DNA of 33,890 nt, from assembly GCA_020718105.1 (NCBI GenBank), contig DYDA01000017.1:1-33890 (forward strand), written 5' to 3'. Of the stretch, positions 13,710 to 14,036 are shown one piece after another. Positions within the stretch are counted from its first letter, which is position 1. The number at the start of each line of letters is the position of its first letter. Source of the DNA: Micavibrio sp. Its GTDB lineage: Bacteria; Pseudomonadota; Alphaproteobacteria; UBA9219. The notes beneath the pieces are model-generated. The model worked only from the letters and a program-made list of their open reading frames with translations. It was not told the origin of the DNA and searched no databases. A program made the translations under genes and the position numbers.

Positions 13710-14036
13710 TTACGCGATATTCAATTTCGAAGGTAGGGTATTGCCGCGTACTAGATGAGTTACAATTCTATCCATCATTGTAGGATCATTCTCATCGATT
13801 GGAAGAATGCGCCATACAGAATCTTGGGTAGCTATGGCAAGAACATCCTGTCTATCGCACCTCCTGACAGCCGCGATACGCGAAATATTATTCGTCGCAT
13901 CAACGCCGCCCCCAAATTGTTCAAGTTCACGAGCAGCTTTCCCCCACGCAGAAGAATGGCGCACTTGCACTAAGACCATGTATTGGCCTTCTGGCAGTTG
14001 GCTCACATCAGAACTCATTCTCTTTGTCACTGGCAT
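13710..14036 (-). CDS. Unrecognised 108-aa protein between rpoB and rpoC
   Basis: I do not recognise this protein. It starts 5 bases after the rpoB stop with GGAG 10 bases upstream of its ATG, and ends 26 bases before rpoC, so it is cotranscribed with both. The sequence suggests a small soluble alpha/beta fold: a strand-like [10 protein letters not shown], an amphipathic helix ([15 protein letters not shown]), a strand-like [17 protein letters not shown] and a C-terminal helix ([13 protein letters not shown]). There is no signal peptide, membrane segment or cysteine cluster. Complete frame, good ribosome site and tight fit in the operon argue for a real gene. A role linked to RNA polymerase is only suggested by position. 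Confidence 0.7.

Follow-up and report, generated by a model that had tools for sequence, protein, structure and literature searches.

A probable orphan gene between rpoB and rpoC in Micavibrio, in a spacer that appears to receive assorted small genes

Background

Few gene neighbourhoods in bacteria are as stable as the rpoB-rpoC junction, and a search of the open-access literature returned no direct report of genes lying between the two. For the secE-rpoBC-str cluster of Gammaproteobacteria and Bacilli, the portion of the source that was available describes insertions between operons (tusDCB, bfd-bfr) or between rplL and rsmC (nrdHEF) (PMC8046335). In Coxiella burnetii, according to the accessible part of its description, the intervening sequence of the 23S rRNA is a 428-nt selfish element that carries an S23p ORF (PMC4990558).

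The window considered here, which is the whole 33,890-nt stretch of DNA that was analysed, comes from a Micavibrio genome (G000 in the comparisons below) and carries an ORF, referred to as P0001, between rpoB and rpoC. P0001 is probably a true orphan gene at an uncommon location, is predicted from its sequence features to be translated, and is best read as a putative accessory gene, either recently gained or very fast-evolving, on the rpoBC transcript.

The gap ORF and its neighbours

An earlier note on this DNA had described an intact 108-aa frame with a ribosome site that leaves 5 and 26 bases on either side, and these coordinates were reproduced, with the frame on the minus strand. The frame has 108 codons, opens with ATG and closes with TAA. 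It and the elements around it, as read from the sequence, are arranged as follows.

14042..18313, minus strand: rpoB, 1423 aa
14047..14051, minus strand: GGGAG, possible ribosome-binding site of P0001, within the 3' end of rpoB and 10 nt from the ATG
14037..14041, minus strand: 5-nt spacer from the rpoB stop to the P0001 start
13710..14036, minus strand: P0001, orphan ORF of 108 aa (ORF reading; homologue searches empty)
13684..13709, minus strand: 26-nt spacer from the P0001 stop to rpoC
13690-13695, minus strand: CGGGAG, probable ribosome-binding site for rpoC, whose ATG follows 6 nt later
9496..13683, minus strand: rpoC, 1395 aa
9443..9468, minus strand: terminator-like hairpin found by eye downstream of rpoC, GGCGAGCC-GTAA-GGCTCGCC followed by T6

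The best match of RpoB in the PDB is 7ye1, the Caulobacter polymerase, and on this basis the genome is assigned to an alphaproteobacterium. A pattern scan of the rpoB-rpoC gap found nothing resembling a promoter on the coding strand, and its one terminator-like match was weak (5 pairs). Together with the common strand of the three genes, this is consistent with the earlier proposal that P0001 is co-transcribed with rpoB and rpoC, and the hairpin 3' of rpoC is the likely end of an rpoB-ORF-rpoC transcript.

P0001 looks coding but atypical. When the 358-nt gap was dinucleotide-shuffled 5000 times, 0.06% of the resulting sequences contained a sense ORF of at least 108 aa. The codon score of P0001 in frame is -0.09 log units per codon, which is higher than that of its own five other frames and of 99.3% of the pieces taken out of frame from neighbouring genes, and lower than that of every in-frame 107-codon piece of those genes. 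Its GC3 is 0.42, versus 0.64-0.69 for rpoB and rpoC and 0.49-0.70 for the neighbouring genes overall. Neither a typical core gene nor an empty spacer accounts for these codon figures as well as a young or foreign gene does. The structure of the gap RNA is ordinary (z -0.19), with no excess that would point to a non-coding role. Prediction of the protein structure from the single sequence with AlphaFold2 was unusable (pLDDT 41). By eye, the protein follows a beta-alpha-beta-beta-alpha-beta order in a ferredoxin-like arrangement, which is an impression only.

Beyond a narrow lineage, no homologue of P0001 was detected. Translated searches of 58 near genomes came back without a copy, and none turned up in 33 genomes of the order. 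A sample of 385 genomes from the class gave two weak matches (E 0.003-0.007), which is about the chance level for that many genomes. No relatives were found in viral contigs, phages or plasmids. The protein had been reported to carry no recognised domain, and family libraries were indeed empty: searches of Pfam, PHROGs, NCBIfam, PADLOC and PDB sequences returned no match. The sole GTDB contig match (L002) lies antisense to the frame of a HAD-like phosphatase and was rejected as a chance match.

The rpoB-rpoC junction in the order and class

The order was sampled with 33 genomes, of which 23 have a readable rpoB-rpoC junction. Three genomes of the same genus (G002, G003 and G004) have a gap of 36-41 nt and no ORF, so that a search for the rpoB-orf-rpoC order in these relatives gave empty gaps; in the closest relative (G005, 94% PdhA identity) the junction is missing from the assembly. 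An ORF of at least 99 aa is nevertheless present in the gap in 7 of the 23 junctions. Four of these are orphans with no family match, found in G000 (108 aa), G010 (148), G027 (190) and G029 (341). Two encode GIY-YIG proteins (PF01541; L018 in G011 and L014 in G014) and are flanked by palindromic repeat units, and one encodes a 23S-IVP/S23p protein (PF05635; L025 in G026) and lies between inverted repeats. Apart from the two GIY-YIG proteins, the gap ORFs are not recognisably related to each other; comparison of P0001 with those of G027 and G029 gave no significant score, and an order-wide search with the G010 and G029 ORFs found no other copy of either. Every insert ORF has a GC3 below that of its own rpoB and rpoC. 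In G020 and G019 the gap, of 135 and 107 nt respectively, is full of palindromic repeats and contains no ORF. The palindromic units of G011 and G014 have the form GTCATTCCGGC...GCCGGAATCC, and the inverted repeats of the G026 insert are AAAGTGAAAAGTGAAGAGTGAAAAG. The GIY-YIG and 23S-IVP inserts are candidate small mobile units inside a core polymerase operon.

In the rest of the class, 80 of 82 junctions have a gap of 158 nt or less (lengths approximate). The other two measure 274 nt, with no notable ORF, and 598 nt, with a possible frame of 158 aa that starts at TTG; the latter (L196) belongs to a genome of 0.8 Mb (G163). The statement that rpoB and rpoC are nearly always adjacent thus holds outside the order and fails inside it. 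Comparison of 7/24 junctions in the order with at most 1/82 in the rest of the class gave a Fisher p of 9.7e-5, the true denominator for the order being 23, and the phylogenetic dependence of this count is limited because most of the inserts differ. Based on these frequencies, the gap is read as a putative site, specific to this lineage, at which assorted small genes land.

Two further junctions indicate how general this behaviour may be. The rplK-rplA junction is tight across the same order, G029 excepted, and therefore not all operon junctions are open. (In G029, rplK lies in two frames with stops, L114 and L115, which is perhaps a sequencing error of the assembly.) The pdhA-pdhB spacer contains assorted small ORFs in about half of the genomes of the order, and loose operon gaps therefore seem to be a trait of the order rather than of rpoBC alone. 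Several of the pdhA-pdhB spacer ORFs (among L119-L139, notably L120, L123, L127, L133 and L139) encode similar lipoyl/biotinyl-like proteins with the motif VGxMGRHVxEGQ...PG; these adjoin the lipoyl-bearing pdhB, and the other spacer ORFs are unrelated.

Boundaries and surroundings of the insert

The spacers that precede rpoC in G002 (AATCGCGAAAAGCGGGAG) and G010 (AATCGCGTAAGTTCACGCAATCGGGAG) resemble, when aligned by eye, the end of P0001 plus its 3' spacer in G000 (ATATCGCGTAAGCGAAGCGTCTTATCGGGAG). The 3' tip of P0001, ATATCGCG TAA, falls within the part that resembles these spacers. This likeness suggests that the stop codon of P0001 lies in old spacer and that the new DNA appears to be upstream of the stop. 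At the other side, RpoB proteins of the order end in a variable acidic linker and then, in most relatives, in a conserved ALPESAE-like tail. RpoB of G000 (14042-14110 region) has no ending of this type, and its nearest relatives also deviate. Given the missing tail, the insert may, at its left boundary, have taken the place of the final rpoB codons. The flanks of P0001 contain no mobile-element ends, target duplications or REP-like palindromes, unlike those of the inserts in G011, G014 and G026. P0001 likewise shows no sign of being a mobile element itself (IS, homing GIY-YIG or IVS), as it has no endonuclease, transposase or IVP domain and no terminal repeats.

The genes that flank rpoBC in the window (alaS, a radical SAM gene, a uracil-DNA glycosylase gene and others) are not common to G003 or G004 in the stretches compared, and gene order around rpoBC is therefore fluid. 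In the window, the upstream neighbour of rpoB is alaS instead of rplJ/rplL, and rplA-rplK-nusG is found at 4108-6216. Immediately upstream of rpoB, at 18314-19232, is a segment of about 900 nt in which no gene was recognised and which contains palindromic repeats and an AT-rich stretch. On the plus strand at 6952-7022, near tRNA-Gly, is a weak third tRNA-like match that scores 29.0 bits, equal to the Rfam threshold; ARAGORN made no call there.

Origin and possible roles of P0001

The account that we favour, and hold to be fairly likely, is that P0001 is a real accessory gene, restricted to its lineage, which moved into an insertion-prone rpoB-rpoC spacer or originated there. This view of P0001 as a passenger is taken because its frame is intact and fits the gap exactly, its codon use deviates, the gap is empty in sister species, and other small genes occupy that gap in related genera. 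P0001 would be transcribed within an rpoB-ORF-rpoC unit, with the GGGAG located 10 nt before its ATG serving as a separate ribosome-binding site for its translation. It would need no separate promoter, as the operon would provide strong expression linked to growth, and the insertion would be tolerated because rpoC retains its own ribosome-binding site. The product is predicted to be a 12-kDa soluble alpha/beta protein that would act as an accessory or selfish passenger and not as a polymerase subunit.

It is possible, though unlikely, that P0001 is instead an old rpoB-X-rpoC gene of the order which evolves too fast to be recognised and has been lost in most members, with the ORFs of G000, G010 and perhaps G029 as its remnants. 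The ORFs of G000 and G010 both begin 4-5 nt past the rpoB stop, and they are 36% identical over 25 ungapped residues at the same distance from the start (G010 segment IQVCVYYSGDWKQAADTVVAEGGEV). This in-register likeness would imply that both descend from one older gene and were not gained independently. In shuffles with the offset limited to 0-3, a limit chosen after the match had been seen, its p was 0.001-0.003. Beta-alpha-beta patterns can be seen by eye in all three ORFs, and the 341-aa ORF of G029 contains two similar segments. However, the unrestricted shuffle gave a p of 0.25, hhalign of the single sequences gave a probability of 1.7%, a two-sequence profile of the G000 and G010 ORFs recruited no further members, and the predicted structure of P0001 was of no use in judging the matter.

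Alternatively, P0001 could be an RNA-polymerase-associated accessory protein that works like the Gram-positive delta or epsilon subunits and whose stoichiometry is fixed by where its gene lies in the operon. We regard this as improbable. In its favour are the location of P0001 and the presumed joint transcription with rpoB and rpoC. The earlier note had suggested that the protein may bind RNA polymerase or respond to it, for which no evidence was obtained; the frame is missing in the three same-genus genomes with an assembled junction, whose gaps are normal, and its absence from these sister species makes a general role with polymerase less likely. In other genera the same gap is occupied by GIY-YIG and IVP genes. 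We know of no link between GIY-YIG or 23S-IVP genes and polymerase, and position alone therefore implies no polymerase function. Searches of Pfam, NCBIfam and the PDB also matched P0001 to no known polymerase-binding family and no solved polymerase factor. On balance, P0001 is more probably a passenger than a new component of the polymerase.

We also think there is little chance that P0001 is not a functional protein at all but inserted or expanded spacer DNA, with a frame that is open by chance or decaying. Its codon statistics below those of every neighbouring-gene piece, its low GC3 and its lack of a homologue would agree with such an origin. Against it are the 0.0006 chance of a frame of this length, a codon signal above 99% of off-frame pieces, the exact fit of the frame with its ribosome-binding site and its 5-nt and 26-nt spacing, and the lack of excess structure in the gap RNA. 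Absence of the frame from relatives had been put forward as a mark of non-coding spacer; the absence itself was found, but that interpretation of it fits poorly, as the relatives lack the whole insert and do not carry a broken frame. It is very improbable that the order retains an extremely fast-evolving rpoB-rpoC protein (in G000, G010 and perhaps G029) that has become unrecognisable from one genus to the next and serves as an arms-race factor guarding or modulating polymerase, for example against phage takeover.

The 108-aa protein in itself matters only if it proves to be translated and to touch polymerase. A lineage that repeatedly accepts different small genes at rpoB-rpoC is a natural test of operon tightness and of the strong expression of new or selfish genes.

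Comparison with known systems

The delta, epsilon and omega subunits are small and their level is tied to that of polymerase; no sequence relation of P0001 to them was detected, and P0001 is absent from sister species. The insertions in the secE-rpoBC-str cluster share with P0001 the entry of genes into a conserved cluster for transcription and translation, and the available portion of that account names none between rpoB and rpoC, where P0001 lies (PMC8046335). The gap ORFs of G026, G011 and G014 are, like P0001, short ORFs on the operon strand in the rpoB-rpoC spacer. They belong to recognisable families and are accompanied by inverted repeats or REP-like palindromes, whereas P0001 has neither. 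As far as the accessible part of its description goes, the Coxiella element is of the same kind as the insert of G026 (PMC4990558). It resides inside rRNA, and P0001 is not an S23p protein, but on that description both would be small passenger ORFs within an essential, strongly expressed transcription unit.
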